Part shown: positions 4,001-17,008 of the stretch, piece by piece
How the letters are laid out: each line of letters starts with the position of its first letter
Position numbering within the stretch: the stretch's first letter is position 1
Assembly (NCBI RefSeq): GCF_029360705.1
Contig: NZ_JARKMX010000002.1
Location: forward strand, 434,001-498,000
Length of the DNA: 64,000 nt
From: Paraflavitalea pollutisoli
GTDB lineage: Bacteria; Bacteroidota; Bacteroidia; Chitinophagales; Chitinophagaceae
Reading direction: 5' to 3'
Notes under the pieces: generated by a model
Database searches by the model: none
The model's input: only the letters and a program-made list of their open reading frames with translations
Told to the model about the DNA's origin: nothing
Program-made: the position numbers and the translations under genes

Positions 4001-4504
4001 GATGCTGCGGGCGATGCGGCGAATATCTTTCCATTCACCCAGCTTCATCGGCGTTTTGAAATTGGCAGGATCACCGTTCACGGGAAAGTCGCACTGCTTT
4101 ACGACCTCTTCAATCATGCCTTCGAGGCCCAGTTTGCGACCATCGTCGGGGCTGTAGATCTTGGTGATGCCGTAATGATGCAGTTCTTCTATTTCCTGGG
4201 GCAGGATGGTACCACCACCACCGCCAAATATTTTGATGTGGCCACAGCCGTTTTCGTCGAGCAGGTCCTTCATGTATTTGAAGAACTCTACGTGACCGCC
4301 CTGGTAGCTGGTAATGGCGATACCCTGGGCATCTTCTTCAATGGCACATTCCACGATCTCGGCAACCGACCGGTTATGCCCGAGGTGAATGATCTCGGCC
4401 CCCTTGGCCTGCATAATGCGGCGCATGATATTGATGGCAGCATCGTGCCCGTCAAAGAGGGAAGCAGCCGTTACGATACGTACAGTATTTGTAGTGAAGC
4501 TCAT
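1028..4504 (-). CDS. icmF: Fused isobutyryl-CoA mutase (IcmF)
   Basis: A 1158-residue adenosylcobalamin enzyme that interconverts isobutyryl-CoA and n-butyryl-CoA, with its own G-protein chaperone built in. Domain order as read: B12-binding domain (1-140) with the DGHDAAI lower-ligand motif (His20) and a GGGGG loop (94-98); a MeaB/ArgK-type GTPase with P-loop GTGGAGKS (235-242); then the mutase barrel (about 560-1158), including the PYTAGVF...[11 protein letters not shown] stretch typical of IcmF rather than methylmalonyl-CoA mutase. Residues 171-228, between B12 and GTPase domains, are a low-complexity Gly/Asp/Asn-rich linker. A TAACTTCG box (complement of 4529-4536) resembles the phylum's -7 element, about 25 bp before the ATG. 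Monocistronic; IcmF-like acyl specificity (for example pivalyl-CoA) cannot be told from sequence. Confidence 0.93.
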
Positions 4505-4626
4505 ATCAGGTAATAATTACGATCGCTGCGAAGTTAGCTCAAAAAGCTAATGATCGTTAGTATCAGGCAATTTGATTTCCTAATCACTTAAAATGGAGTA
4601 GCTTAGACCTATAAAATGCCTACACC

Positions 4627-5448
4627 ATGGTGATTGATGCACACGTACACTTCTGGAAGTACAACAAGCAGCGCGATAGCTGGATGGATGACATGAAGAC
4701 CCTGCAGCAAGACTACCTGCCCGAACACCTCGAACCTACGCTTCGGCGCAACGGGGTCGATGGGGTAGTGGCAGTGCAGGCCAGCCAGGAGGAAGTAGAA
4801 ACCAGGTTCCTGTCGGAACTTGCCCGCACCCATCCCATCATCAAAGGGGTAGTGGGCTGGCTCGACCTACAGGCTGATAACATCGAAGAGCGGCTCGAAC
4901 ATTTTACCCAATACGAAAGCATCCGCGGCTACCGCCATGTGGTGCAGGCAGAACCGGATGACTTCCTGCTACGGCACAACTTCCAGCGAGGTGTGCGGGC
5001 ACTGAAGGCATACAATTATACTTATGACGTATTGATCTTTCACCACCAGCTGAAGCCGGCGGTGGAGTTTGTAGCGCAGTTTCCCGATCAGAAGCTCATC
5101 ATCGACCACTGCGCCAAACCCGATATCAAGCACAAGAAGATCGACGAATGGGCTGCCCTGATGAAGGAGATCGCCCAACAGCCACAGGTCTATTGCAAGC
5201 TGTCGGGCCTGTTTACCGAAGCGGCCTGGAAAACCTGGAGTGCGGCGGAATTCTATCCGTATCTCGATGTAGTGTTCGAAGCCTTTGGTACAGACAGGTT
5301 GGTATTTGGCAGCGACTGGCCGGTGATGCTGGTCAGTGGCATCTATGTACAATGGAAAAGCCTATTGGAGAAATACATGGAAAACTACAAAGCCGAAGAG
5401 AAAGACAAGGTATTTGGCCGCAATGCCCAAACCTTCTATTCTTTATAA
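4627..5448 (+). CDS. Amidohydrolase family 2 / lactonase-like hydrolase (COG3618)
   Basis: A 273-residue TIM-barrel metal hydrolase of the amidohydrolase-2 family, close in layout to L-fuconolactonase and 2-pyrone-4,6-dicarboxylate hydrolase. The metal-binding HxH is at the very start (DAHVHFW, residues 4-10); later come IIDHCAKPD (about 156-164) and FGSDWPV (about 234-240), supplying the conserved His and Asp. It has no signal peptide and should be cytoplasmic. It stands divergently from icmF and is followed by its own terminator, so there is no pathway context; the natural substrate, a lactone or amide, is unknown. Confidence 0.85.
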   Translation: MVIDAHVHFWKYNKQRDSWMDDMKTLQQDYLPEHLEPTLRRNGVDGVVAVQASQEEVETRFLSELARTHPIIKGVVGWLDLQADNIEERLEHFTQYESIRGYRHVVQAEPDDFLLRHNFQRGVRALKAYNYTYDVLIFHHQLKPAVEFVAQFPDQKLIIDHCAKPDIKHKKIDEWAALMKEIAQQPQVYCKLSGLFTEAAWKTWSAAEFYPYLDVVFEAFGTDRLVFGSDWPVMLVSGIYVQWKSLLEKYMENYKAEEKDKVFGRNAQTFYSL

Positions 5449-5453
5449 ATCAT

Positions 5454-5488
5454 TGGCGGCTCGCAGTCCTTGTGAGCCGCCACTTTCC
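5454..5488 (+). terminator. Putative terminator after the amidohydrolase gene
   Basis: Stem TGGCGGCTC (5454-5462) and GAGCCGCCA (5474-5482) with an 11-nt loop, followed by a pyrimidine tract (CTTTCCTT). It starts 6 bp after the stop codon. Confidence 0.65.
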
Positions 5489-5647
5489 TTGATTCCAGAT
5501 ACCCGTTTGTAATTCAAGGCCTTACCTGAAAACCCGCTCCCCGCCAGCCTTTCGACCGCCTCCACTCACGGCACCGCCTCTCCCAAATAATTTCCGGACT
5601 CATCACAAAAATCCTTATATTGTGTAAGCCACACACAAACGACTGCT

Positions 5648-6208
5648 TTGAAACAATGCGCCGCCATATTGTTACTAAGTCTCCTTTCCTTCAACTGGTT
5701 TGGCTACCGCATTCTAGCAGACATCCTTCAGCAACAGGCAGATATAGCACTCGAAGCAAAACTGGATCAACACGATTACGACGAATCAAGGCTCGTCGAA
5801 ATGCGCGTTACCCTCGACCTCCCCTATCAGACCAACTGGACCGATTTTGAACGGGTAGATGGTGAAATAGAGATCAACGGTATCCACTATAAATATGTAA
5901 AACGTAAAGTGCAGGACGGACAGCTCGTGCTCCTCTGTCTTCCCAATGAGCAAAAAATGAAACTGCAAACGGCCCGCGACGACTTCTTCAAACTCGTCAA
6001 CGATTTGCAGCATCCGTCCCAAAGCAAAAAATCAGACAACCACGCCTTTTCCTTCCATAGTTTTTCCACGGAATATTGTTCCCAAAGGAACGAGTGGAGC
6101 CTGGCCGCACTCCACGCGGAACCGCTACACTTCCGCCAAACAACAGCAGTCATCCCGGAAGGCGCCTATGCCGCCACGCCAGAACAACCACCGGAGTTGC
6201 TCGGTTAA
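5648..6208 (+). CDS. Exported protein of unknown function at the head of the haloperoxidase locus
   Basis: A 186-residue protein I do not recognise. It would begin with a TTG codon; no in-frame ATG would keep the N-terminal hydrophobic segment (AAILLLSLLSFNWFGY), which looks like a signal peptide or single anchor. The middle (about 40-115) is rich in alternating charged and hydrophobic residues that could form a small beta domain (VEMRVTLDLPY..., EIEINGIHYKYVKRKV); the C-terminal third is low in predicted structure and Pro/Ala-rich. It is 145 bp upstream of the first haloperoxidase-like lipoprotein on the same strand. Small exported proteins of this kind often sit near outer-membrane receptor genes in this phylum, but I can name no function. 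Confidence 0.6.
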   Translation: MKQCAAILLLSLLSFNWFGYRILADILQQQADIALEAKLDQHDYDESRLVEMRVTLDLPYQTNWTDFERVDGEIEINGIHYKYVKRKVQDGQLVLLCLPNEQKMKLQTARDDFFKLVNDLQHPSQSKKSDNHAFSFHSFSTEYCSQRNEWSLAALHAEPLHFRQTTAVIPEGAYAATPEQPPELLG

Positions 6209-6353
6209 TCTTCTAGTGACTCACTTTTGATCGTCTCGCAGCATTCGTATTGGCCATCCTTACATTGGCATTACCAGCACATCGATCACAACCCGTGTTC
6301 TAAAGCAGCACAAGGCTGCCATGGAACAGATACGCCATCATATCCGACTATAC

Positions 6354-7697
6354 ATGCAAAAGTTCCTTTTGGCCATCTTACTGTGCGCCTCCATTGTGTC
6401 CTGTAAACCCAAAGATGATTACCAGGCAGTGATGCACGATCCTGTCTTGTACAGCAAGCTAACCGGTCAACTCACGGAGATCATGACCTTCAACATCTTT
6501 ACGCCGGTTGTAGCCAGCAGGGTATACGCCTATGCCCACCTGGCCGGCTATGAAGCCATGGCAGCTGGTGACAGCAATTACCTGTCGCTTGCCGGACAAC
6601 TCAAAGGATTTGAGGGAGTACCCAAAGCACCGGCAGGCAAACCAATAGACCACCACTACGCCGCCATGATCGCCATGATGGAAGTGGGCAAAACACTCAC
6701 CTTCTCCAATGCGACCATGGATAGCATCGTCAATGCCCTCAAAGACCAGGCACTCGACCACGGCATGCCCGACTCGATGGAAGCACACTCCAAAGCCTAT
6801 GGAATGGAGGTAGCCAAAGCCGTACTCGGCTGGAGCAAAAAAGACAACTACGCACAAACCCGCTCTGCCCCCAAATACACCGTTCCCGAAGAAGAAGGGA
6901 AATGGATACCCACGCCGCCTGCTTATATACAGGCTGTAGAACCGCATTGGCGCACCATCCGCACCATCGCCATGGACAGCGCCAGTCAATTTGCGCCACC
7001 GCCGCCGGCCACGTATAGCAAAGACAGCAGCAGCGAATTCTACCAATGGGCCAAAGGCGTGTACGAGACCGGCAATAACCTCACCGAAGAAGAGAAAGCC
7101 ATCGCCAGCTTCTGGGATTGCAACGGCTTCAAGGTAAATGTGGTGGGCCACGCGATGTTTGCCACCAAAGCCATGACCCCCGGCGGCCACTGGATGGGCA
7201 TCGTCGGCATCATCTGCAAAGACAGAAACGTCAACTTTGCCAAAACCATACATACCTATACCATCGTATCCTTCGCCCTCATGGATGCCTTCATCTCCTG
7301 CTGGGACGCCAAGTATACCTGGGCACTCATTCGCCCCGAATCGATGATCAACCAATTCATCGATCCGGCGTGGAAACCGTTCTTACAAACACCACCGTTC
7401 CCGGAATATACCAGCGGTCACTCGGAAATCTCCAGCGCCGCCGCTACCGTACTCGAACACCTGTACGGAAACAATATTTCCTTCAGCGATTCCACCGAGC
7501 GGGGCTGGGGCTGGCCCGACCGGAAGTTCACCTCCGTTCGTCAGGCGGCTGACGAAGCAGGTATCAGCCGTTATTACGGCGGCATTCACTACCGCAAATC
7601 CGTGGAAGTAGCCAAAGAACAGGGCTTGCGCCTCGGCAATTACATCATAAGCAAACTGCAGACAGATAAACAGGCCAGTAAACTGGCTGCCCATTGA
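6354..7697 (+). CDS. Vanadium-dependent haloperoxidase/PAP2-type lipoprotein (first copy)
   Basis: A 447-residue exported lipoprotein of the vanadium chloroperoxidase/type 2 phosphatidic acid phosphatase superfamily. I place the start at 6354 because it gives a compact lipoprotein signal (MQKFLLAILLCASIVSC) with lipobox Cys; an upstream in-frame ATG at 6321 adds 11 residues. All oxyanion-binding motifs are present near the C-terminus: K-x6-RP (KYTWALIRP), SGH (YTSGHSE) and SR-x5-H (SRYYGGIHY). The same site binds vanadate in haloperoxidases and phosphate in acid phosphatases, so either peroxide-dependent halide oxidation or phosphomonoester cleavage is possible. It is the second member of a probable operon running to the TonB receptor at 13693 and only loosely resembles the second copy (9878-11431). 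Confidence 0.85.
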   Translation: MQKFLLAILLCASIVSCKPKDDYQAVMHDPVLYSKLTGQLTEIMTFNIFTPVVASRVYAYAHLAGYEAMAAGDSNYLSLAGQLKGFEGVPKAPAGKPIDHHYAAMIAMMEVGKTLTFSNATMDSIVNALKDQALDHGMPDSMEAHSKAYGMEVAKAVLGWSKKDNYAQTRSAPKYTVPEEEGKWIPTPPAYIQAVEPHWRTIRTIAMDSASQFAPPPPATYSKDSSSEFYQWAKGVYETGNNLTEEEKAIASFWDCNGFKVNVVGHAMFATKAMTPGGHWMGIVGIICKDRNVNFAKTIHTYTIVSFALMDAFISCWDAKYTWALIRPESMINQFIDPAWKPFLQTPPFPEYTSGHSEISSAAATVLEHLYGNNISFSDSTERGWGWPDRKFTSVRQAADEAGISRYYGGIHYRKSVEVAKEQGLRLGNYIISKLQTDKQASKLAAH

Positions 7698-7793
7698 TTC
7701 AGATCCTTTACCCATCCGAAAACAAGATATCCTACCCAAATACCAAAGAAGAAAATGCGCTAGAATCAACACGTCCAAAAACTACTGCCAAAC

Positions 7794-8879
7794 ATGAAAA
7801 AACTAATTGCTTGTTGCTGCATGCTCCTCGCTGGTGCAGCTGCCTACGCACAAGGCTGTGTAGCCATCCGTAGCACCGGTGCCGTTTGTACGAAACCCGA
7901 CGCCATGGCCGACGGACACAAAGGATGGCAACTCAATACCACCTACCGCTACTTCAGATCATTCAGACATTTTGTAGGCACAGAAGAACAAAAGGAAAGA
8001 CTCGAGAAAAACACAGAGGTCATCAACTGGACTCATAACCTCGACCTGGCCCTGGTACGCCACTTCAACAACCGCTGGTCGCTGGCTGTGAACCTGCCCA
8101 TTATTTCCAACGTACGTTCATCGCTGTATGAACATGGAGGTAACAGCGCCAAGAATGCCCGCCACAAAACAAGCTCCTTCGGCATCGGCGATATCCGCTT
8201 CACTGGCTATTACTGGCTGTTTGACCCCATGAAATCGCCCAATGCCAATATACAGGTTGGCCTGGGCATCAAATTACCAACCGGCGACTACCAGTATCAG
8301 GACTTCTTCGTTAAAAACGATACCACCAAATTGCTCGGTCCCGTCGACCAGTCGATCCAGCTGGGGGATGGCGGCACCGGCTTCACCACGGAGATCAACG
8401 CCTACTACAACTTCTCGAAGAAGATAAGCGTGTACGGTAGCTTCTTTTACCTCCTCAATCCGCGTGAGCAAAATGGTGTATCCACCGGCCGGGGTAGCCC
8501 CGTAGCGGCAACCGCCATTACCTACGGCAGCAGCGTAATGAGTGTGCCCGATCAATACATGGTCCGCGGCGGCGCCAACTATACGCTCGACAAACTAACC
8601 GCTTCAGCAGGTATTCGTATGGAATGCGTGCCCTCCAGTGACCTTATTGGTGGCAGCAGCGGATTCAGAAGACCAGGTTATGTACTATCAGCAGAACCTG
8701 GCCTCTCCTACAACCTCCCCAAATTCAGCGCTTTCGTTACGGTACCCGTAGCCTTGCAACGCAACCGTACCCAGAGCTATGCCGATAAGCAACGAACCCG
8801 GATCACCGGCGTTTATGCGCAGGGAGATGCAGCCTTCGCCGACTACTCGATCAACATCGGCTGCTCATTCCGGTTTTAA
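7794..8879 (+). CDS. Outer-membrane beta-barrel protein
   Basis: A 361-residue protein with a Sec signal peptide (MKKLIACCCMLLAGAAAYAQ, cleavage after AYAQ) and a long series of amphipathic strands with aromatic girdles (NTTYRYFRSF, LALVRHFNNRWSLAVNLPI, VGLGIKLPTGDYQY), ending in an aromatic residue (IGCSFRF), the usual outer-membrane barrel sorting signal. It resembles the porin/'transporter' barrel superfamily. A pair of cysteines (GCVAIRSTGAVC) sits at the mature N-terminus. It lies 96 bp after one haloperoxidase-like gene and 31 bp before another barrel, so it probably serves the same exported system; its cargo is unknown. Confidence 0.75.
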   Translation: MKKLIACCCMLLAGAAAYAQGCVAIRSTGAVCTKPDAMADGHKGWQLNTTYRYFRSFRHFVGTEEQKERLEKNTEVINWTHNLDLALVRHFNNRWSLAVNLPIISNVRSSLYEHGGNSAKNARHKTSSFGIGDIRFTGYYWLFDPMKSPNANIQVGLGIKLPTGDYQYQDFFVKNDTTKLLGPVDQSIQLGDGGTGFTTEINAYYNFSKKISVYGSFFYLLNPREQNGVSTGRGSPVAATAITYGSSVMSVPDQYMVRGGANYTLDKLTASAGIRMECVPSSDLIGGSSGFRRPGYVLSAEPGLSYNLPKFSAFVTVPVALQRNRTQSYADKQRTRITGVYAQGDAAFADYSINIGCSFRF

Positions 8880-8910
8880 CCAATACCACTAACTAAAATT
8901 GAACTGCCAG

Positions 8911-9876
8911 ATGAAATGCACAATACCTAACCAACTTATTCAACGCATTCTATTCGCTGTGTGCTGCCTGGTACTCCTTCGGGAACAGGCAGCTGCACAG
9001 ACGGAGATCGACGGCATCATGATGGCCAAGAACAAGTTTTGCCTCGGACCGGTCTATAGCTACAGCAGCTGGACCGATTACTGGGAAGGAAAAATGAAAC
9101 GCGACAACGAAAACCTGGGTCGCGTCTCCACACAAATGGCTGCCATTATGGGCAACTATGGCATCACCGACAAACTCAATGTGCTCTTCAGCCTGCCGTA
9201 TGTCTCCACCAAAGCCTCGGCCGGCACGCTTCACGGCATGAACGGCATCCAGGATTTCAGCCTGTGGGTAAAGTGGATGCCCATCGAGCAAAAGATCGGC
9301 AAAGGCGACTTCTCGGCCTATGCCATCGGCGGCTACTCACTGCCGGCCTCCAATTATGCAGCAGACTTCCTACCGCTGTCTATCGGACTGCGCAGCCGGA
9401 ATCTCTCCCTGCGTGCCATGGCCGATTACCAGTTGGGCTGGTTCTACGTTACCGGCTCCGCCACCTATGTGGTACGCAGTAATATCTCTATTGACCGCTC
9501 GGCCTATTATACCACCGAGATGCACTATACCAACAAGGTCGACATGCCCGATGCCGCTTCCTTCAACTTCCGCACAGGATACCGCCAGGGCAACCTGGTA
9601 GCGGAGGCCATCATCGACAACTGGACTACACTCGGCGGCTTCGACATCACCCGCAACAACATGCCCTTTCCCAGCAACAAGATGAACGCCACCCGGGTGG
9701 GCGCCAATGTCAAATACGAAATAGCACAACTGCGTGGCCTCTCGCTCATCGGCGGTGGCAACTATACCATCGCCGGCCGCAATATGGGCCAGGCCACCAC
9801 GGTATACGGCGGTATTTTCTACATCCTGGATTTTGCCGCCAGCAGGAAGACCACCACTTCACCCAAAAAGAACTGA
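8911..9876 (+). CDS. Second outer-membrane beta-barrel protein
   Basis: A 321-residue exported protein. I take the ATG at 8911 instead of the in-frame TTG at 8899; it gives a signal peptide with cleavage after EQAAAQ. The mature part starts with MMAKNKFCLGPVYSYSSWTDYWEG and alternates polar and hydrophobic residues in barrel-like strands (LNVLFSLPYVS, FSLWVKWMPI, GVYGGIFYILDF near the end). This resembles outer-membrane proteins annotated as alpha-amylase-like/transporter barrels, without a confident family. The stop is one base before the next start (TGACATG), so translation is probably coupled to the second haloperoxidase-like lipoprotein. Confidence 0.7.
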   Translation: MKCTIPNQLIQRILFAVCCLVLLREQAAAQTEIDGIMMAKNKFCLGPVYSYSSWTDYWEGKMKRDNENLGRVSTQMAAIMGNYGITDKLNVLFSLPYVSTKASAGTLHGMNGIQDFSLWVKWMPIEQKIGKGDFSAYAIGGYSLPASNYAADFLPLSIGLRSRNLSLRAMADYQLGWFYVTGSATYVVRSNISIDRSAYYTTEMHYTNKVDMPDAASFNFRTGYRQGNLVAEAIIDNWTTLGGFDITRNNMPFPSNKMNATRVGANVKYEIAQLRGLSLIGGGNYTIAGRNMGQATTVYGGIFYILDFAASRKTTTSPKKN

Positions 9877-9877
9877 C

Positions 9878-11431
9878 ATGAAAAAGTTATTATTCGTTAC
9901 TACCACCATAGTCGCAGTGGCCATTGCCCTGCCAATCGCCTGCTCCAAAGATGTAAAAGGCCGTACCGACGACCTGCCCGCCTTGCAGCCCGCCAAAACC
10001 GATATCGAGGGAGGCACCTGGAAGCCCGTATTGCTGGCCGCCGCGAATGAATTTTCCGTGCCGGTACCGTCAGCCACCACCACACCGGATTACATCGCAC
10101 AGATCAATGAGATCAAGACCTGGCAGGCCGACCTCACCAGCGACGAAAAAGCTATTGTAAAATACTGGAGCGCCGGCGCGATCCTGCGTTGGAATGAGAT
10201 ATTGCGCGAACTGGTGGCCAAGCACAACCTGCCCCCCTATCAAAATGCCGACGGCACCTATCCGGCGCCCAACGCCAACAACCCGTTGGCCTATCCATTC
10301 TTTCCCTTTGCCAACCCTCCTTACGCTGCACGTGCTTATGCGTATGTAAGCGCCGCCCAATACGATGCCCTGGTGGCAGCCTGGCACTATAAGAAACTGT
10401 ACAACCGGCAAGCGCCTTACAAGGTCGATGCGACGGTACAGGTATTGGTACCACAAACCGACCTGCCCTCCTATCCATCGGAAGATGCCGTGGTAGTTGG
10501 TGCCGCCGTGGAGATGCTGAAACTACTCTTCCCCGGCGACCAGGATTTCATTCAAGGGAAAGCAGAAGAACACAAACGTGCCCGCCTCATCGCCGGTGCC
10601 AACGTGCGCAGCGATATAGAAGCCGGTGAAGCACTCGGCAAAGCGGTAGCCCAAAAGTTCGTGACCCGCGCCCGGGGCGACCGGGCAGGTACAGCCGGTG
10701 GCAATGCCACACTCTGGAAGAAACTGGAAACAGATTGCGAAGCACGCGGAGAGAAACCCTGGTACAGCCTCGAGACACCCAAACGTCCGCCTATGTTACC
10801 GGTATTTGGTGTTGTAAAGCCTTTCCTCTTCGACTCACTCACGGCGGTGTCTTTACGTCCCGGTCCGCCACCACTCACCGGCAGCGAAAAAATGAAGCAT
10901 GAAACCAATGAGATCTACGAATACGTCAACAATCCTACGCGCGAACGCCTGCGCATCGTGCACTTCTGGGCCGATGGTGCGGGTACGTATACCCCTCCGG
11001 GTCACTGGGACGCTATTGCCGCCGAAGATTTCATCACCAAGAACTACAGCGAGATCCGCTGGGCGCGCAACATGGCCTTGCTCAACATGTCACTCATGGA
11101 TGCGGCCATCGTATGCTGGGATACCAAGTATTATTATTTCAACCCACGCCCCACACAACTGGATCCCAAGATCAAAACGCTGACGGGCATTCCCAATTTC
11201 CCGGCTTATATCTCCGGCCACTCCACCTTTAGTGGAGCTGCCGCCGCCATCCTCTCACACCTGGTGCCAGAAAGAGCCAGCGCTTACCAGGCAATGGCCA
11301 GCGAGGCATCTATGTCGCGTATGTACGGCGGTATACATTATCGCGCTGATTGTGAAGTGGGACTGGAAGTAGGCAAGAAGATCGGCAACTATGCAGCAGA
11401 ACGGGCCAAGACCGATGGTGCCGGTAATTAA
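9878..11431 (+). CDS. Vanadium-dependent haloperoxidase/PAP2-type lipoprotein (second copy)
   Basis: A 517-residue lipoprotein. The ATG at 9878 gives the signal MKKLLFVTTTIVAVAIALPIAC with a lipobox Cys; an open frame upstream at 9734 only overlaps the previous gene. The C-terminal half has the complete PAP2/haloperoxidase signature: K-x6-RP (KYYYFNPRP), ISGHSTFSGAAA and SR-x5-H-x3-D (SRMYGGIHYRAD). It is about 70 residues longer than the first copy and differs widely outside the motifs, so these are paralogues of old divergence or different substrates, not a recent duplication. It is one base from the preceding barrel gene and 21 bp from the TonB receptor, which ties it to an outer-membrane uptake function. 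Haloperoxidase versus phosphatase activity is open. Confidence 0.88.
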   Translation: MKKLLFVTTTIVAVAIALPIACSKDVKGRTDDLPALQPAKTDIEGGTWKPVLLAAANEFSVPVPSATTTPDYIAQINEIKTWQADLTSDEKAIVKYWSAGAILRWNEILRELVAKHNLPPYQNADGTYPAPNANNPLAYPFFPFANPPYAARAYAYVSAAQYDALVAAWHYKKLYNRQAPYKVDATVQVLVPQTDLPSYPSEDAVVVGAAVEMLKLLFPGDQDFIQGKAEEHKRARLIAGANVRSDIEAGEALGKAVAQKFVTRARGDRAGTAGGNATLWKKLETDCEARGEKPWYSLETPKRPPMLPVFGVVKPFLFDSLTAVSLRPGPPPLTGSEKMKHETNEIYEYVNNPTRERLRIVHFWADGAGTYTPPGHWDAIAAEDFITKNYSEIRWARNMALLNMSLMDAAIVCWDTKYYYFNPRPTQLDPKIKTLTGIPNFPAYISGHSTFSGAAAAILSHLVPERASAYQAMASEASMSRMYGGIHYRADCEVGLEVGKKIGNYAAERAKTDGAGN

Positions 11432-11452
11432 ACCCAAACACCAGAGCGAATA

Positions 11453-13693
11453 ATGATATTGACTAAACATATTCTTTCCTGTAGCACCACAAGGCACCTG
11501 CTCTTAGGAGCAGGCTGCCTTTGTTCCCAACTGGTAATGGCACAAGACCACACCAGGACCGATACCCTCAAGGCCAAAACACTCGATAGCATCACCGTCA
11601 TCGCCCGGTTGCAACAGGGTGTGGTACAAACATTGTCTTCCATCCACGGCACCTATATGTATGGAGCACGGAAGACGGAGGTCATCAACCTCGACAAACT
11701 CGATGTGAACCGTACGGATAATAATCCCCGCCAGCTGTTTGCCAAAATACCCGGTGTATTTGTGTACGAGAACGACGGCACGGGCAACCAGGTCAATATC
11801 GCCACCCGCGGCCTCACCGCCCACCGTTCGTGGGAGATGAATGTGCGGCATAATGACGTCATGACCAACTCCGACCTGTATGGCTATCCGGCCAGCCACT
11901 TCAATGCGCCTACCGAATCCATCGAGCGCATCGAACTGGTGCGGGGCAGCGGCGCTTTGCAATACGGCGCCCAGTTTGGGGGTATGGTCAATTACATTAC
12001 CAAAGAAGGAGATAGCAGCCGCAAGATCAGTTTCGAAACACAGAACGCTGCCGGTTCTTATGGCCTGCTCAGCACCTATAATGCCATTGGTGGCAAGGTT
12101 AACAAGCTGCAGTATTATGCCTATGTGAATTACCGAAAGTCTGACGGCTACCGCGAGAACAGCGAATACCGTTATGTAGCTACCCATGCTCACCTGACTT
12201 ATCATTTTACAAACAGGTTGCGCCTGCGGGCCGAATACAACCTGATGGACTACCGCAACCACGTGAACGGGGGATTGACTGATGCCCAGTTCAATGCCAA
12301 CCCGCGGCAGTCTACGCGTACGAGAAACTACTACAGCCCCACCATCCATGTTCCCTCGCTGCGATTGGACTACGATATCAGCAAGAACACGTCGATCAAC
12401 TTCATCAGTTCGGCCATACTGGGTTCACGCAACAGTGTGCAGTTCATCGCCCTCAGCACCGTGAAAGACACTTTCAATACCACGCTGGGCAGCTATAACC
12501 CACGCCAGGTAGACATCGATCAATACCACAGTTATGCGCAGGAGTTGCGGGTGAGGCACAGCTATAAACTGTTCAGCAAACCATCTACCGTCGTAGCCGG
12601 TGTACGCTACATCAACAACGACCTGCACCGCATGCAATTGGGCAAGGGTACTACCGGGTTCGATTACGACCTCAGCCTGACCGATCCGCAATGGGGCAGG
12701 GACCTTCATTTCAAAACGCAGAACGTATCGCTCTTTGCCGAAAACATGTTGCAGTTGTCGAGGCAGTGGTTGCTGACGGCGGGTATACGCTACGAGAACG
12801 GGGAGACCCGTATGAATGGCACCATCAAGAACTACACAGCAGGGGAGATCCCTGTCAACATTCCGCATCGCTTTGTTTTGCTGGGTGCCGGGTTGCAATA
12901 CCAACCCAGCAGTACTTTAACTGTATTTGCCAACTGGGCACAGGCTTACCGGCCAGTAATCTTTGCCGACATCATCCCCACCAGCAACCTCAATAAGATT
13001 GATCATAATATCAAGGATGCCAGCGGCAGCAATGCCGAGCTGGGTGTCCGTGGCCGCATCAGCCAGTACCTGCATTTCGACCTCACCCTGTTCAATATGA
13101 ACTACGGCAACCGGGTGGGCAACATGGCCCAGGTCCAGAACAACCAAACCTATCTGCTGCGCACCAATATTGGCGACGCCACCACGCGGGGTGCAGAACT
13201 GTATGTAGAATTCCAGCCACTGGCCTGGCTTAGCGGATACCGCTCCCCCTTCCAGCTTTCGGTATTTACTTCCACAGCCTATATCCATGCACGCTATAAG
13301 AACGGGCAGGCTACTGTAAATGGTGCCAACATCGATGTAACCGGTAACTGGATCGAAACGACGCCCAACTGGATCAGCCGCAACGGCGTGCAAATGGGAT
13401 ATCGGGGATTATCTGCCACGGTACAGTACAGCATTACCGGCAAGTCTTATGCGGACGCACTCAATACGGTGCAGCCCAATGCCAGCGGCACCATTGGCCT
13501 GGTACCTGGCTACCAGCTGGTTGACCTCAACCTCACCTGGCGGTTTGCCAAACATTACAATGTGAAATGCTCCCTGAACAATCTTTTCGACAAACAATAT
13601 TTTACAGAGCGTCCTCCATTCTTCCCCGGCCCAGGCGGTATATACCCGTCTGATGGCCGTTCGATCATTTTCTCCATCGGCGCTTCTCTGTAA
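11453..13693 (+). CDS. TonB-dependent receptor, ferric-dicitrate (FecA)-like
   Basis: A 746-residue outer-membrane active transporter. After a signal peptide ending about residue 31 (MAQ), it shows a short TonB-box-like region (LDSITVIARL, residues 44-53), a plug domain (about 70-180, with QLFAKIPGVFVYENDGTGNQVNIATRG reading as the classical plug motif and RIELVRGSGALQYG), and a 22-strand barrel ending in ASL with FDKQYFTERPP shortly before. It lacks the N-terminal carboxypeptidase-regulatory-like domain found in SusC proteins and no SusD partner follows, so this is a siderophore/metal type receptor, not a glycan one. It is the last gene of the haloperoxidase-barrel operon and precedes a strong terminator. 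Substrate unknown; iron chelates or a phosphorylated ligand are possible. Confidence 0.88.
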   Translation: MILTKHILSCSTTRHLLLGAGCLCSQLVMAQDHTRTDTLKAKTLDSITVIARLQQGVVQTLSSIHGTYMYGARKTEVINLDKLDVNRTDNNPRQLFAKIPGVFVYENDGTGNQVNIATRGLTAHRSWEMNVRHNDVMTNSDLYGYPASHFNAPTESIERIELVRGSGALQYGAQFGGMVNYITKEGDSSRKISFETQNAAGSYGLLSTYNAIGGKVNKLQYYAYVNYRKSDGYRENSEYRYVATHAHLTYHFTNRLRLRAEYNLMDYRNHVNGGLTDAQFNANPRQSTRTRNYYSPTIHVPSLRLDYDISKNTSINFISSAILGSRNSVQFIALSTVKDTFNTTLGSYNPRQVDIDQYHSYAQELRVRHSYKLFSKPSTVVAGVRYINNDLHRMQLGKGTTGFDYDLSLTDPQWGRDLHFKTQNVSLFAENMLQLSRQWLLTAGIRYENGETRMNGTIKNYTAGEIPVNIPHRFVLLGAGLQYQPSSTLTVFANWAQAYRPVIFADIIPTSNLNKIDHNIKDASGSNAELGVRGRISQYLHFDLTLFNMNYGNRVGNMAQVQNNQTYLLRTNIGDATTRGAELYVEFQPLAWLSGYRSPFQLSVFTSTAYIHARYKNGQATVNGANIDVTGNWIETTPNWISRNGVQMGYRGLSATVQYSITGKSYADALNTVQPNASGTIGLVPGYQLVDLNLTWRFAKHYNVKCSLNNLFDKQYFTERPPFFPGPGGIYPSDGRSIIFSIGASL

Positions 13694-13730
13694 TAAACGA
13701 CGTAATTAGTCTTAGTTAGTTATAAATGGT

Positions 13731-13760
13731 CACCCCCGTTTCTACGGGGGTGTATTTTTT
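13731..13760 (+). terminator. Rho-independent terminator after the TonB receptor
   Basis: Perfect 9-bp stem CACCCCCGT (13731-13739) and ACGGGGGTG (13744-13752) with a TTCT loop, followed by TATTTTTT. It lies 38 bp after the receptor stop codon and closes the haloperoxidase/TonB operon. Confidence 0.93.
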
Positions 13761-13806
13761 GTAGGAGATATATTGCTTAATTTAGAACCATCCAAACCGG
13801 TCGGTT

Positions 13807-15414
13807 ATGAAGAAAACGATAGGATTGATCTCCTTGATGGGGTTTGTATTGCTCGCTACTGCCCAGTTGCCGGCATCCCCCGATAAGATCTATGGCGATC
13901 TGTTTCACCAGGTACAGATGAGTAAGATCTTTCCCGACGGAAAAACATTCGTGGACTGTATCCCCAAGCGCGCTCCCAAAGACATCATGTATGATTACGG
14001 GATGCGAAAAGGCCCGCAGTTTGACCTGAAGAAATTCGTGGAGGAAAACTTCGAACTACCACATACCCCACAACTGAACTATATCACCCGGGAGAAAGAT
14101 GTAGTCATGCACATCAGGAACCTATGGGGTGTATTGAAACGCGAACCCGATATTACGCCCGGCGCACCGCCCATGGGCGCCCAGGCCCGGGAAGGCACCT
14201 CGCTCTTACCACTTCCTTATCCTTACATCGTACCCGGTGGCCGCTTCCGCGAGGTTTATTACTGGGATTCTTATTTCACGCTGCTGGGACTGAAAGAAAG
14301 CGGGGAAAATGTCATGGTCGAAAACATGGTCAGGAATTTCGCGTACCTGATCGACACCTATGGCCATATTCCCAATGGCAACCGCAGTTATTACCTCAGT
14401 CGTTCACAGCCTCCTTTCTTTGCCCTGATGGTCGAATTGCTGGCCGAGATCAAAGGCGACTCCATCTACACCACCTTTCTGCCTGCGCTGGAAAAAGAAT
14501 ACCAGTTCTGGATGGAAGGCGCACAGAAGCTAAAACCCGGTCAGGCCGCGCGGCGGGTAGTGAAGTTGAAAGACGGCACGGTCATGAACCGCTATTGGGA
14601 TGACAGTCCGACCCCACGCCCTGAAAGCTACCGCGAAGACGTAGAGACCGCCAATAAGACCAAACGCCCCAAAACGGAAGTGTATACGCACCTGCGTGCC
14701 GGTGCTGAGAGTGGCATCGACTTCAGCAGCCGCTGGCTGGCAGATGGTAAAACACTTACTTCGATACAAACGACCGACTACATTCCCGTAGACCTCAACG
14801 CCCTGCTCTACAAACTGGAGATCGTGATGACCAAGGCCTATGTGGTGAAACATGCCGATAGCCTGTCGGCCGTATTCCGGAAGATCTCGGAGAAAAGAGC
14901 ACTGTCCATCGACAAATATTGCTGGAACAACAAGCTCAACTTCTATGTCGATTATAATTTCCGCACGCTGAAACAATCTACCATCATATCGCCTGCCGGC
15001 ATGTATCCCTTTTGTGTGTATACGCGCAAGCTCGATTACATGAGCCTGTTGGCCCGCCGGGCGGGCGCCGTGGTACGTGAGCAGCTGCTACGGGATGGTG
15101 GCGTACAAACCACCGCCCATGCTACCGGTGAACAGTGGGATGCCCCCAATGGCTGGGCGCCCCTGCAGTGGATGACTATCTGGGGACTTGATCGTTGTGG
15201 TCAGCGCGAGCTGGCCCGCGATATCGCCGACCGCTGGATGAAACTCAACATCGAAGTGTTTCAGCGCACCGGCAAACTCATGGAGAAATACAATGTAGTT
15301 GATACCAAGCTGGAAGCCGGTGGGGGAGAATATGCGGGACAGGATGGTTTTGGCTGGACCAACGGTGTATTACTTAAACTCATCAGCAAATACGGAATGC
15401 CCAAAGAACAATAA
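13807..15414 (+). CDS. treA: Exported alpha,alpha-trehalase (GH37)
   Basis: A 535-residue glycoside hydrolase that splits trehalose into two glucose units in the periplasm. It has a signal peptide (cleavage about residue 20, LLATAQ) and both GH37 signatures: PGGRFREVYYWDSYF (about 142-156) and QWDAPNGWAPLQW (about 445-457). The acid Asp is in AGAESGIDFSSRW and the base Glu in LMEKYNVV, both intact, with the Gly-rich GGGEYAGQDGFGW loop. Length fits periplasmic TreA. It overlaps the next gene by one base (TAATG). A polar effect from the upstream operon is unlikely because of the terminator at 13731. Confidence 0.95.
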   Translation: MKKTIGLISLMGFVLLATAQLPASPDKIYGDLFHQVQMSKIFPDGKTFVDCIPKRAPKDIMYDYGMRKGPQFDLKKFVEENFELPHTPQLNYITREKDVVMHIRNLWGVLKREPDITPGAPPMGAQAREGTSLLPLPYPYIVPGGRFREVYYWDSYFTLLGLKESGENVMVENMVRNFAYLIDTYGHIPNGNRSYYLSRSQPPFFALMVELLAEIKGDSIYTTFLPALEKEYQFWMEGAQKLKPGQAARRVVKLKDGTVMNRYWDDSPTPRPESYREDVETANKTKRPKTEVYTHLRAGAESGIDFSSRWLADGKTLTSIQTTDYIPVDLNALLYKLEIVMTKAYVVKHADSLSAVFRKISEKRALSIDKYCWNNKLNFYVDYNFRTLKQSTIISPAGMYPFCVYTRKLDYMSLLARRAGAVVREQLLRDGGVQTTAHATGEQWDAPNGWAPLQWMTIWGLDRCGQRELARDIADRWMKLNIEVFQRTGKLMEKYNVVDTKLEAGGGEYAGQDGFGWTNGVLLKLISKYGMPKEQ

Positions 15415-15944
15415 TGAAACAGTACTTATTAACCCTGATCCTTTTTCTGGCCGCCTTTACCAGCTTCGCACAAAATAAACACTCCTTTCCAAAAGATTTT
15501 ATCGGCCATTGGCAGGGCACGTTGCATTGGTATTCGCAGGGGGCGGATACGCCTAAAACGGTCAATATGGAGCTCACCGTGCGGCCTCATCCCGACAGCG
15601 CCGGCCAATATACCTGGCATATCGTGTACGGTAAGCCGGGGCAGGATAGCCGCCCTTATGTGTTGAAACCGGTGGATGTGGCGAAGGGGCATTGGGTGAT
15701 CGATGAGGTCAATGGCATTGTGCTCGACCAATACTGGATCGGTGGCAAGTTTGCCGGCGCTTTTACGGTGGGTACGGTCACCATTCTCAACAGCTACTGG
15801 ATCGAAAATGGTCAGCTACAGGTAGAATTCTACTCCCACCCGCCCAAGCCATTGGCCACCACCGGTAAAGGCACGGAAGACTCACCGACCGTCGACAGCT
15901 ACCAGATCAGGTCGTACCAGCGGGCTGTGCTCAGCAAAAAATGA
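15414..15944 (+). CDS. Small exported protein of unknown function
   Basis: A 176-residue protein with a clear signal peptide (MKQYLLTLILFLAAFTSFAQ). The mature part begins with a lipocalin/calycin-like opening (FPKDFIGHWQGTLHWY) and continues as likely beta strands (VNMELTVRPH, YTWHIVYG, KGHWVIDEVNGIVLDQYWIG, VTILNSYWI, LQVEFYSH). This pattern suggests a small beta-barrel that binds a ligand, but I cannot name the family. It overlaps the trehalase stop by one base and its own stop overlaps an ATGA of the next frame, so it belongs to the same transcript as trehalase. Confidence 0.7.
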   Translation: MKQYLLTLILFLAAFTSFAQNKHSFPKDFIGHWQGTLHWYSQGADTPKTVNMELTVRPHPDSAGQYTWHIVYGKPGQDSRPYVLKPVDVAKGHWVIDEVNGIVLDQYWIGGKFAGAFTVGTVTILNSYWIENGQLQVEFYSHPPKPLATTGKGTEDSPTVDSYQIRSYQRAVLSKK

Positions 15945-15976
15945 GACAAACAGTTACCTTCGCACAAATTTTTACC

Positions 15977-16798
15977 ATGACCCGCTGGATAATCTGTTGT
16001 CTTTTGCCCCTTGTGTTTGTTGGTTGCTCGCCCAATAATGTGGATGTAGAGAATGACCTGAAGCAGTATTTTGACGCGAACAAAGTAACCGGCACCTTCG
16101 GCATGTTTGACAATGGCCAGGGTCGTTTTTCAGTCTACAACCTGCCCCGGTTTACCGATAGCGTGTACCTGCCCGCCTCGACTTTCAAGATCATCAACTC
16201 CCTGATCGGTCTCGAAACCGGACAAGCGCTGGATAGCTCTACCATTATCAACTGGGATGGCATCGACCGTGGCCGGCCCGAGTGCAACCGCAACATGAGC
16301 ATGAGAGATGCCTTCCGCATTTCCTGCCCACCATGGTACCAGGAGCTGGCCCGCCGCATCGGCAAACCCGCCATGCAGAAATGGATCGACACCCTGGGCT
16401 ATGCACAGCGCTATGGCAAGTTTACCATTGGCAACAACCTCGATACGTTCTGGCTCGACAACAGCGCCAAAGTAACGGCTGATGAAGAATTGGGCATCGC
16501 CAAAAAGCTCTACTTCGACCAACTCCCTTTCCAGAAAAGATCACAACGCATTGTACGTGATATGATGCTTTGGGAAACAGACGCCAACTATCACCTTTCG
16601 TACAAAACAGGCTGGGGTTTCACCGAAAAAGGCAATGCCCTCGGTTGGATCGTAGGCTGGATCGAAGAGAACCAACACCCTTACTTTTTCGTGTTGCAGA
16701 TAGAATCGAACGACCACAACTTCGATATGGCGCCCGTACGCATCAAGATGCTGAAAGACATCCTGAAACACAAGGGGTTCATGGAAGGCAAGCGTTAA
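15977..16798 (+). CDS. Class D beta-lactamase (OXA)-like lipoprotein
   Basis: A 273-residue serine hydrolase of the penicillin-binding/class D beta-lactamase fold. I choose ATG 15977, which yields a lipoprotein signal (TRWIICCLLPLVFVGC), in preference to ATG 15941, which overlaps the previous stop; a TACCTTCG promoter-like box lies just upstream of 15977. Seen motifs: the nucleophile box S-x-x-K in PASTFKI, a second box SCPPWYQEL where OXA enzymes have SxV, YGK where they have YGN, FWLDNS, YKTGWGF (the KTG box) and GWIVGWIE. Two of the accessory boxes are therefore altered, so hydrolysis of beta-lactams is not assured. Lipidation would hold it at the membrane. No regulator sits beside it. Confidence 0.85.
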   Translation: MTRWIICCLLPLVFVGCSPNNVDVENDLKQYFDANKVTGTFGMFDNGQGRFSVYNLPRFTDSVYLPASTFKIINSLIGLETGQALDSSTIINWDGIDRGRPECNRNMSMRDAFRISCPPWYQELARRIGKPAMQKWIDTLGYAQRYGKFTIGNNLDTFWLDNSAKVTADEELGIAKKLYFDQLPFQKRSQRIVRDMMLWETDANYHLSYKTGWGFTEKGNALGWIVGWIEENQHPYFFVLQIESNDHNFDMAPVRIKMLKDILKHKGFMEGKR

Positions 16799-16974
16799 TG
16801 ACTTGACAGAACCGGCCCGGTGATCCCAGGAATACCTGGTTTGTAGGATTGGCTACCTGACTCGTCTGCTTAAGCCATTAGCTGGCATGCCAGCGCGACG
16901 ATCTGTTCTACCAGTTTAGCTCCCGCCCCTACCTGCCCGCGCCGAGCTCGATTCAACAAATAATTAGCATTCCC

Positions 16975-17008
16975 GAAGGCTTTCAATAACTTGAAAGCCT
17001 TCTCTTTA
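16975..17008 (+). terminator. Strong hairpin terminator, 177 bp from the nearest upstream gene
   Basis: Perfect 12-bp stem GAAGGCTTTCAA (16975-16986) and TTGAAAGCCTTC (16991-17002) with TAAC loop, followed by TCTTTAT. It is well separated from the beta-lactamase-like stop (16798), leaving a 177-nt stretch between gene and hairpin. Confidence 0.8.

Follow-up and report, generated by a model that had tools for sequence, protein, structure and literature searches.

Six plus-strand genes at positions 5648–13693 of a 64,000-nucleotide stretch of Paraflavitalea pollutisoli DNA (Bacteroidota, Chitinophagaceae; contig NZ_JARKMX010000002.1, positions 434,001 to 498,000; the whole stretch is called the window below) encode two lipoproteins of haloperoxidase type (E1 and E2), two outer-membrane barrels (B1 and B2), a TonB-dependent receptor and a small protein, S186. 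We compared this locus with its relatives and found that B2 and E2 form its constant core, which S186 frequently accompanies; the larger gene set is for the most part limited to a single family. We propose tentatively, putting the chances slightly below even, that E1 and E2 would oxidize halide with hydrogen peroxide (H2O2) at the outer membrane, that B2 (and B1) would let a hydrophobic product or substrate pass, that S186 would be a helper or control protein, and that the receptor would be an optional importer.

B2 and E2 remain adjacent beyond the family

We searched two samples, 117 genomes from the window's family and 296 from the phylum. E1 relatives (E ≤ 1e-20) were found in 60 and E2 relatives in 45 of the family genomes; in the phylum sample E2 (E ≤ 1e-40) was present in 24 genomes and E1 in 58. 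Within the family we accepted 41 places as true E2, the window's own included and one of them broken, and higher-scoring matches to E1 lay within 7.5 kb of 33 of these.

Sixty E2 loci (given L numbers here) were then fetched, 40 from the window's family and 20 from six other families, and B2 lies directly upstream of E2 in all 60. Clustering of open reading frames (ORFs), with the window excluded, placed S186 in 46 of these loci, E1 in 33, B1 in 30 and the receptor in 20, and tblastn gave 42 for S186, 32 for B1 and 21 for the receptor. A scan of named genomes found at least 568 relatives; among the best 80, all Bacteroidota by title and at least 10 of them probably shared with the first set, B2 stands upstream of E2 in 79, and the 80th has 53 bp of upstream sequence. 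Many of these 80 loci end early, so that their counts (S186 59, E1 52, B1 45, receptor 30, trehalase 29) are lower bounds. The closest E2 relative among the best 80 comes from a Niastella metagenome-assembled genome (87%).

Importantly, the pair is adjacent in 20 of the 20 loci from the six other families, where E2 identity falls to 37–38%, and we therefore rejected close kinship as the cause of the co-conservation. An earlier note, made from the letters of the window alone, had staked its operon on conservation outside very close relatives, and the synteny indeed supports a conserved envelope module. The six-gene set as such is not a phylum-wide unit: outside the family E1 adjoins E2 in one of the 20 loci and the receptor is near in two, a third having a short hit 10 kb away, and in L123–L128 B2 and E2 are the only query genes present. 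The receptor counts (20 of 60 fetched and 30 of the best 80 named loci) do not establish the active importer suggested earlier.

Two haloperoxidase-type lipoproteins

Both E1 and E2 have a lipobox-like Cys and complete K-x6-RP, SGH and SR-x5-H motifs, as had been read from the sequence before. A crude lipobox pattern matched 26 of 34 E1 and 41 of 60 E2 proteins; some of the non-matches have a looser Cys site, a few are truncated, and a few of the matches look spurious. E1 (447 residues) matched the vanadium iodoperoxidase 4cit with a phmmer E value of 1.3e-137, and 218 of 435 aligned residues (50%) are identical. Its site residues in the window are W317, K320, R327, F349, S354-G355-H356, R406 and H412. 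By sequence, length and site residues E1 corresponds to a solved vanadium-dependent haloperoxidase.

E2 (517 residues, mostly analyzed as 9887–11428, that is 514 residues with numbers 3 lower than in the full protein) scored 58.6 bits with PF01569 and 4.8e-19 with 4cit in phmmer. A profile built from 21 E2 sequences found 4cit best (1.7e-35), with the acid phosphatase 7f17 as the next distinct match (6e-14). The AlphaFold2 model of E2 (predicted local distance difference test, pLDDT, 91.7) has the two-bundle haloperoxidase fold. Its first Foldseek matches were the iodoperoxidase (4usz, 6.8e-14, template modeling (TM) score 0.73 by target length) and then other haloperoxidases, with which it aligns end to end; phosphatases matched over about 200 columns only, the catalytic bundle. 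This structural comparison, suggested in the earlier note, came out on the side of the haloperoxidases. Neither protein has the dimensions of a class A acid phosphatase, a single bundle of about 230 residues. By profile and by predicted fold, the best match of E2 is therefore the iodoperoxidase, ahead of the acid phosphatases.

We aligned 62 E2 sequences (the window, the 60 loci and a second copy in L120), two of which are fragments lacking the site, leaving 60 readable copies. The Trp three residues before the active-site Lys (K−3), the Lys, the first Arg, the Pro and the Ser are present in all 60, and the Phe at S−5, the Gly, the His, the second Arg and the last His in 59, so that the full set of vanadate-site residues is kept in 59 of 60. 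Position K−3 is Trp in the Curvularia and Ascophyllum enzymes, according to PMC11871015. In the profile alignment 7f17 lacks both the Trp at K−3 and the Phe at S−5. L120 holds a second B2-E2 pair (L120:6337-7842) whose E2 is without the Gly-His of SGH, the second Arg and the last His, probably a dead enzyme retained with its barrel. E2 relatives also occur on two alphaproteobacterial plasmids, with no adjoining barrel annotated in the incomplete gene tables. Of the plasmid relatives of E2 listed, the two best covered are annotated "phosphatase PAP2 family protein" and others "vanadium-dependent haloperoxidase".

Among 35 aligned proteins from the E1 slot, the Trp at K−3, the Lys, the first Arg, the Pro, the Phe at S−5 and both His are invariant, and the Gly and the second Arg are each present in 34. 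The E1 query gathered 142 proteins from all loci, 104 of E1 type and 38 of E2 type. The site motif of the 104 is SGH in 50, CGH, with Cys in place of the vanadate-site Ser, in 46, SAH in 4 and unclassified in 4; the window's E1 carries Ser. In a tree of all 142 proteins, the 46 CGH proteins form one clade (support 0.95). Compared with an SGH set that included E2-type proteins, they show linked changes: 42 of 46 have Ala instead of Ser in front of the second Arg, and 41 of 46 have a His two positions past the last His. CGH goes together with the motif ARFYGGIHFH, and its carriers include the E1-slot proteins of L070, L072, L074, L080 and L086. The clade is possibly a new active-site type. Separately, E1 paralogues of the window genome and of a congener (L129, L133) sit 3′ of SusC-like, SusD-like (by eye) and large FG-GAP/UnbV genes.

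The barrels B1 and B2

B1 was assigned by sequence: it scored 25.4 bits with PF13557 (cut-off 22) and matched FapF in phmmer (6.9e-07). With 54% mean column identity over 14 sequences and an invariant QGCVA near the predicted mature start, it seems unusually conserved for an outer-membrane barrel. For B2 no Pfam family was matched at E ≤ 1, channel families included, and its profile found nothing among PDB sequences at E ≤ 1. Its AlphaFold2 model (mean pLDDT 89.4) has 12 long strands, and the first Foldseek matches were FapF and the COG4313 channel 4rl8. TM scores by target length were 0.78–0.79 for 4rl8 versus 0.64 for FapF (first hits). The claim that each enzyme comes with its own barrel was right for B2 and E2 and proved loose for B1 and E1. 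In six loci of other families (L248–L251, L253 and L256) the gene after E1 has no match to B1 or B2, and its product does not look barrel-like by eye in the five loci where the protein was inspected; a general own-barrel rule for E1 is therefore not supported.

S186, a small protein of these loci

Neither Pfam nor NCBIfam gave a match to S186 at E ≤ 1, and its search against solved structures gave nothing convincing (best 0.087). Over 20 aligned sequences N16, G19, Y20, Y81 and a C-terminal PP are invariant. The small exported protein of the earlier note is present, but judged by eye it looks membrane-anchored and is probably not freely exported.

In the 117 family genomes we found 75 S186 hits, 49 near E1 or E2 (29 near both, 13 near E1 only, 7 near E2 only) and 26 away from them. 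S186 is present in 46 of the 62 family genomes with E1 or E2 versus 2 of the 55 without (Fisher 2.6e-16, uncorrected for kinship); counted the other way, E1 or E2 accompanies S186 in 46 of 48 genomes, and both enzymes are missing from 53 of the 69 genomes that lack S186. In the phylum sample it was found (E ≤ 1e-5) in 18 of 296 genomes. The 20 regions that we read for copies away from E1 and E2 (L137–L156) hold 21 of those 26 hits. PF02627 proteins are present in 12 of these regions and FG-GAP/UnbV proteins in 10, both in three and neither in L144; the PF02627 setting also holds a major facilitator superfamily (MFS) transporter. One PF02627 member, taken from an E2 locus, scored 86.6 with the NCBIfam "peroxidase-related enzyme" model (cut-off 81.8).

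Of 44 readable S186 copies, 37 start with a non-ATG codon, TTG or GTG, and 5 with ATG, while 2 had no start placed (4 more lacked an anchor). Of 45 anchored copies of E2, 42 start with ATG, as do 54 of 56 anchored copies of B2 and 17 of 20 of E1; the anchor was missing in a further 15, 5 and 14 copies, respectively. The counts for S186, E2 and B2 were unchanged when the stretches searched had equal width. A wider set of 122 S186 hits, which includes some genomes twice, gave 117 placed copies: close to the expected start, 91 have only TTG or GTG, 17 have ATG and 9 have none of these. The non-ATG start therefore suggests low or regulated translation.

Boundaries and neighbors of the unit

The six plus-strand genes described earlier were confirmed at their positions (Table 1), the gaps from S186 through E1, B1, B2 and E2 to the receptor being 145, 96, 31, 1 and 21 bp, within the range of 1–145 bp given before. 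The E1 start is probably 6354.

Table 1. Features of the window at and around the six genes
Feature	Position	Strand	Description
S186	5648–6208	+	small, probably membrane-anchored protein, TTG start; first gene of the unit
E1	6354–7697	+	lipoprotein, vanadium iodoperoxidase family
B1	7794–8879	+	outer-membrane barrel, PF13557/FapF-like
B2	8911–9876	+	outer-membrane barrel predicted with 12 long strands; constant E2 partner
E2	9878–11431	+	lipoprotein, second haloperoxidase-type enzyme
TonB-dependent receptor	11453–13693	+	nearest solved relative FecA
Terminator-like hairpin 3′ of the upstream gene (4627–5448)	5454–5482	+	13-pair stem; pattern match only
Terminator-like hairpin 3′ of the receptor	13731–13752	+	9-pair stem, then TATTTTTT
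Exported trehalase	13807–15414	+	PF01204; TreF/TreA NCBIfam

Both plus-strand terminator-like hairpins in 4500–17000 flank the six genes just outside, and the stretch with the second one (13694–13790) folds with z = −3.7 against shuffles. Terminator-like matches on both strands of 4500–17000 number 9 versus a shuffle mean of 13.4, not above chance, and the hairpin positions are supportive only as unit boundaries. An Rfam scan of 4500–17000 gave no match, sigma-70-type promoter matches there were at chance level, and a Bacteroidota-type promoter pattern was no commoner at the locus than in shuffles. We rejected the upstream gene as a member of the unit, as it occurs in 3 of the 60 fetched (tblastn) and 6 of the best 80 named loci. 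Trehalase is unlikely to share the window unit's transcript because a terminator-like hairpin lies in between.

The receptor passed the cut-offs of PF00593 and PF07715. It had been called FecA-like, and FecA is indeed its nearest solved relative (phmmer 1.5e-19), though the receptor stays below the NCBIfam cut-offs (TIGR01783, 134.4 versus 223.5 needed; FecA, 103.5 versus 1100 needed). The trehalase passed two of three NCBIfam TreF/TreA cut-offs. By ORF clustering trehalase is present in 19, GH65 in 20 and a large FG-GAP/UnbV (CRTAC1-type) protein in 10 of the 60 fetched loci; tblastn also gave 19 for trehalase, and in 8 loci trehalase starts 1.6–1.9 kb from the E2 start. Of the GH65 proteins (for example L090:892-2931), the one member tested passed the NCBIfam kojibiose hydrolase cut-off. 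This link to trehalase and GH65 had not been foreseen. Three genes past the receptor, 15941–16798 encodes a protein resembling class D beta-lactamases (215 bits with the NCBIfam model, short of its cut-off of 250), the cluster of which is found in 8 of 61 E2 loci, the window counted.

Proposed function and alternatives

The gene content, protein families, active-site residues, predicted folds and synteny were established directly; we infer from them a single transcript, bound vanadate, a halide substrate, a direction of transport, a role for S186 and a receptor ligand. The six genes would be transcribed together and serve peroxide-dependent halide chemistry at the outer membrane. There E1 and E2 would bind vanadate and, with H2O2, convert a halide (most likely iodide) into halogen or hypohalous acid. 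B1 and B2, the latter the fixed partner of E2, would be barrels of the COG4313/FapF type through which I2 or HOI, a halogenated organic or an organic substrate may pass; COG4313 channels have been proposed to take up hydrophobic molecules (PMC4493636). In operons of this kind S186 may act as a helper or control protein anchored in the membrane, with the receptor as an optional importer.

Several observations weigh against this proposal. Sites of the PAP2 type hydrolyze phosphate too, and the Asp four residues past the last His that class A phosphatases carry is present in all 60 readable E2 copies. Only 19 of the 35 E1-slot proteins have the vanadate-site Ser, the other 16 having Cys. Because E1 so rarely adjoins E2 outside the family (1 of 20), the two enzymes may well act on different substrates. 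Trehalase, GH65, LacI and sugar or MFS transporter genes adjoin E2 loci of relatives, and halide chemistry does not explain them. No H2O2-making enzyme or halide transporter was among the genes identified, with no family-level search made for these; as a guess, released glucose might feed an H2O2-making oxidase.

The conserved Asp and the PF01569 motifs would also suit envelope phosphatases that dephosphorylate a sugar or another ligand, which the barrels and the receptor would then take up, as would the 7f17 match of the E2 profile, the trehalase and GH65 neighbors and the PAP2 annotation of the two best-covered plasmid relatives, though others there are annotated as haloperoxidases. We consider such a role unlikely, since length, two-bundle fold and first matches are those of haloperoxidases, both enzymes have the Trp at K−3 and the Phe at S−5, and half of the aligned E1 residues are identical to a solved iodoperoxidase. 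Of the two chemistries offered in the earlier note, halide oxidation thus fits better, by the E1 identity, the E2 profile and fold and the Trp and Phe residues, and phosphate removal fits less well. The sugar neighbors could instead mean that the lipoproteins process or detoxify hydrophobic or aromatic compounds accompanying plant or fungal disaccharides, the barrels importing the products. Trehalase (29 of the best 80 named loci), GH65 (20 of 60), the LacI and MFS genes and the Sus-type and FG-GAP/UnbV genes ahead of the E1 paralogue in the window genome are in line with this, and PF02627 takes in carboxymuconolactone decarboxylases. COG4313 channels have moreover been linked to hydrophobic compounds, with uptake proposed to occur most likely by lateral diffusion (PMC4493636). 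Yet a terminator-like hairpin parts trehalase from the window unit, these sugar genes are absent from most fetched E2 loci, and no aromatic ring-cleavage gene was among the annotated neighbors, with no search aimed at one; this explanation is improbable too.

The one-to-one adjacency of B2 and E2 might also arise if B2 were an export pore devoted to delivering E2 to the surface, as FapF does with amyloid subunits, and not a small-molecule channel. FapF was the first Foldseek match of B2 and a sequence match of B1. We hold this to be very unlikely, as 4rl8 fits B2 better than FapF does (TM score 0.79 versus 0.64) and folded lipoproteins are not known as FapF cargo.

Halide oxidation at the outer membrane, our preferred explanation, can be extended to a broader and doubtful picture, a widespread halogen oxidation in the Bacteroidota envelope. 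B2-E2 would oxidize halide with peroxide and pass the reactive product through its own barrel; the family operon would add a second iodoperoxidase-type enzyme and an importer, all under S186 as a common small protein, which also precedes peroxidase-related genes. The outcome might be peroxide-driven halogen uptake or signaling, with the Cys-site branch carrying out further chemistry.

Relation to known systems

The vanadium iodoperoxidase of Zobellia galactanivorans (4CIT, 4USZ) resembles E1 in identity, site residues and a lipoprotein-type N-terminal Cys, and E2, more remotely, in predicted fold and site. The Zobellia enzyme is reportedly a single, iodide-specific enzyme; the window instead joins two dissimilar enzymes to barrels, S186 and a receptor in an operon. 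A vanadium iodoperoxidase gene of Zobellia was up-regulated on a brown alga compared with alginate (PMC9296495). In Arenibacter sp. C-21 iodine uptake requires glucose and oxygen or a peroxide source, the genome has at least 5 relatives of 4USZ, and a membrane-bound haloperoxidase was proposed, with a membrane-bound glucose oxidase as the H2O2 source (PMC5064120). This member of the Bacteroidota with relatives of the same iodoperoxidase is a parallel and not a test; PMC5064120 names no channel, small protein or operon, and no H2O2-making oxidase was identified in the loci studied here, where no search was aimed at one.

The COG4313/PF13557 channels, such as Pput2725 (4RL8), and FapF (5O65, 5O67, 5O68) are 12-strand barrels of similar length, to which B1 is related by Pfam and B2 by predicted fold; unlike them, B2 has no sequence family match and is tied one to one to a haloperoxidase-type lipoprotein. 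Class A acid phosphatases (PhoN, PhoC) and 7F17 share the PAP2-type site motifs, but their chains of about 210–260 residues correspond to the catalytic bundle of E2 only, and 7F17 lacks the pocket Trp and Phe. In the literature searched, which covered few subscription papers, we found no description of the B2-E2 pairing, the operon, S186 or the Cys variant and, as the earlier note had supposed, no system of exactly this content. The enzyme family and the channel class are already known; within that literature these four features, the pairing being a fixed one, appear new.

What bacterial vanadium haloperoxidases do for the cell is largely open. A partner channel that stays beside E2 down to 37–38% identity, and an operon that recurs, provide concrete genes to delete and assay. 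If our proposal is true, they would open the handling of halogens and peroxide at the Bacteroidota cell surface to genetic study.

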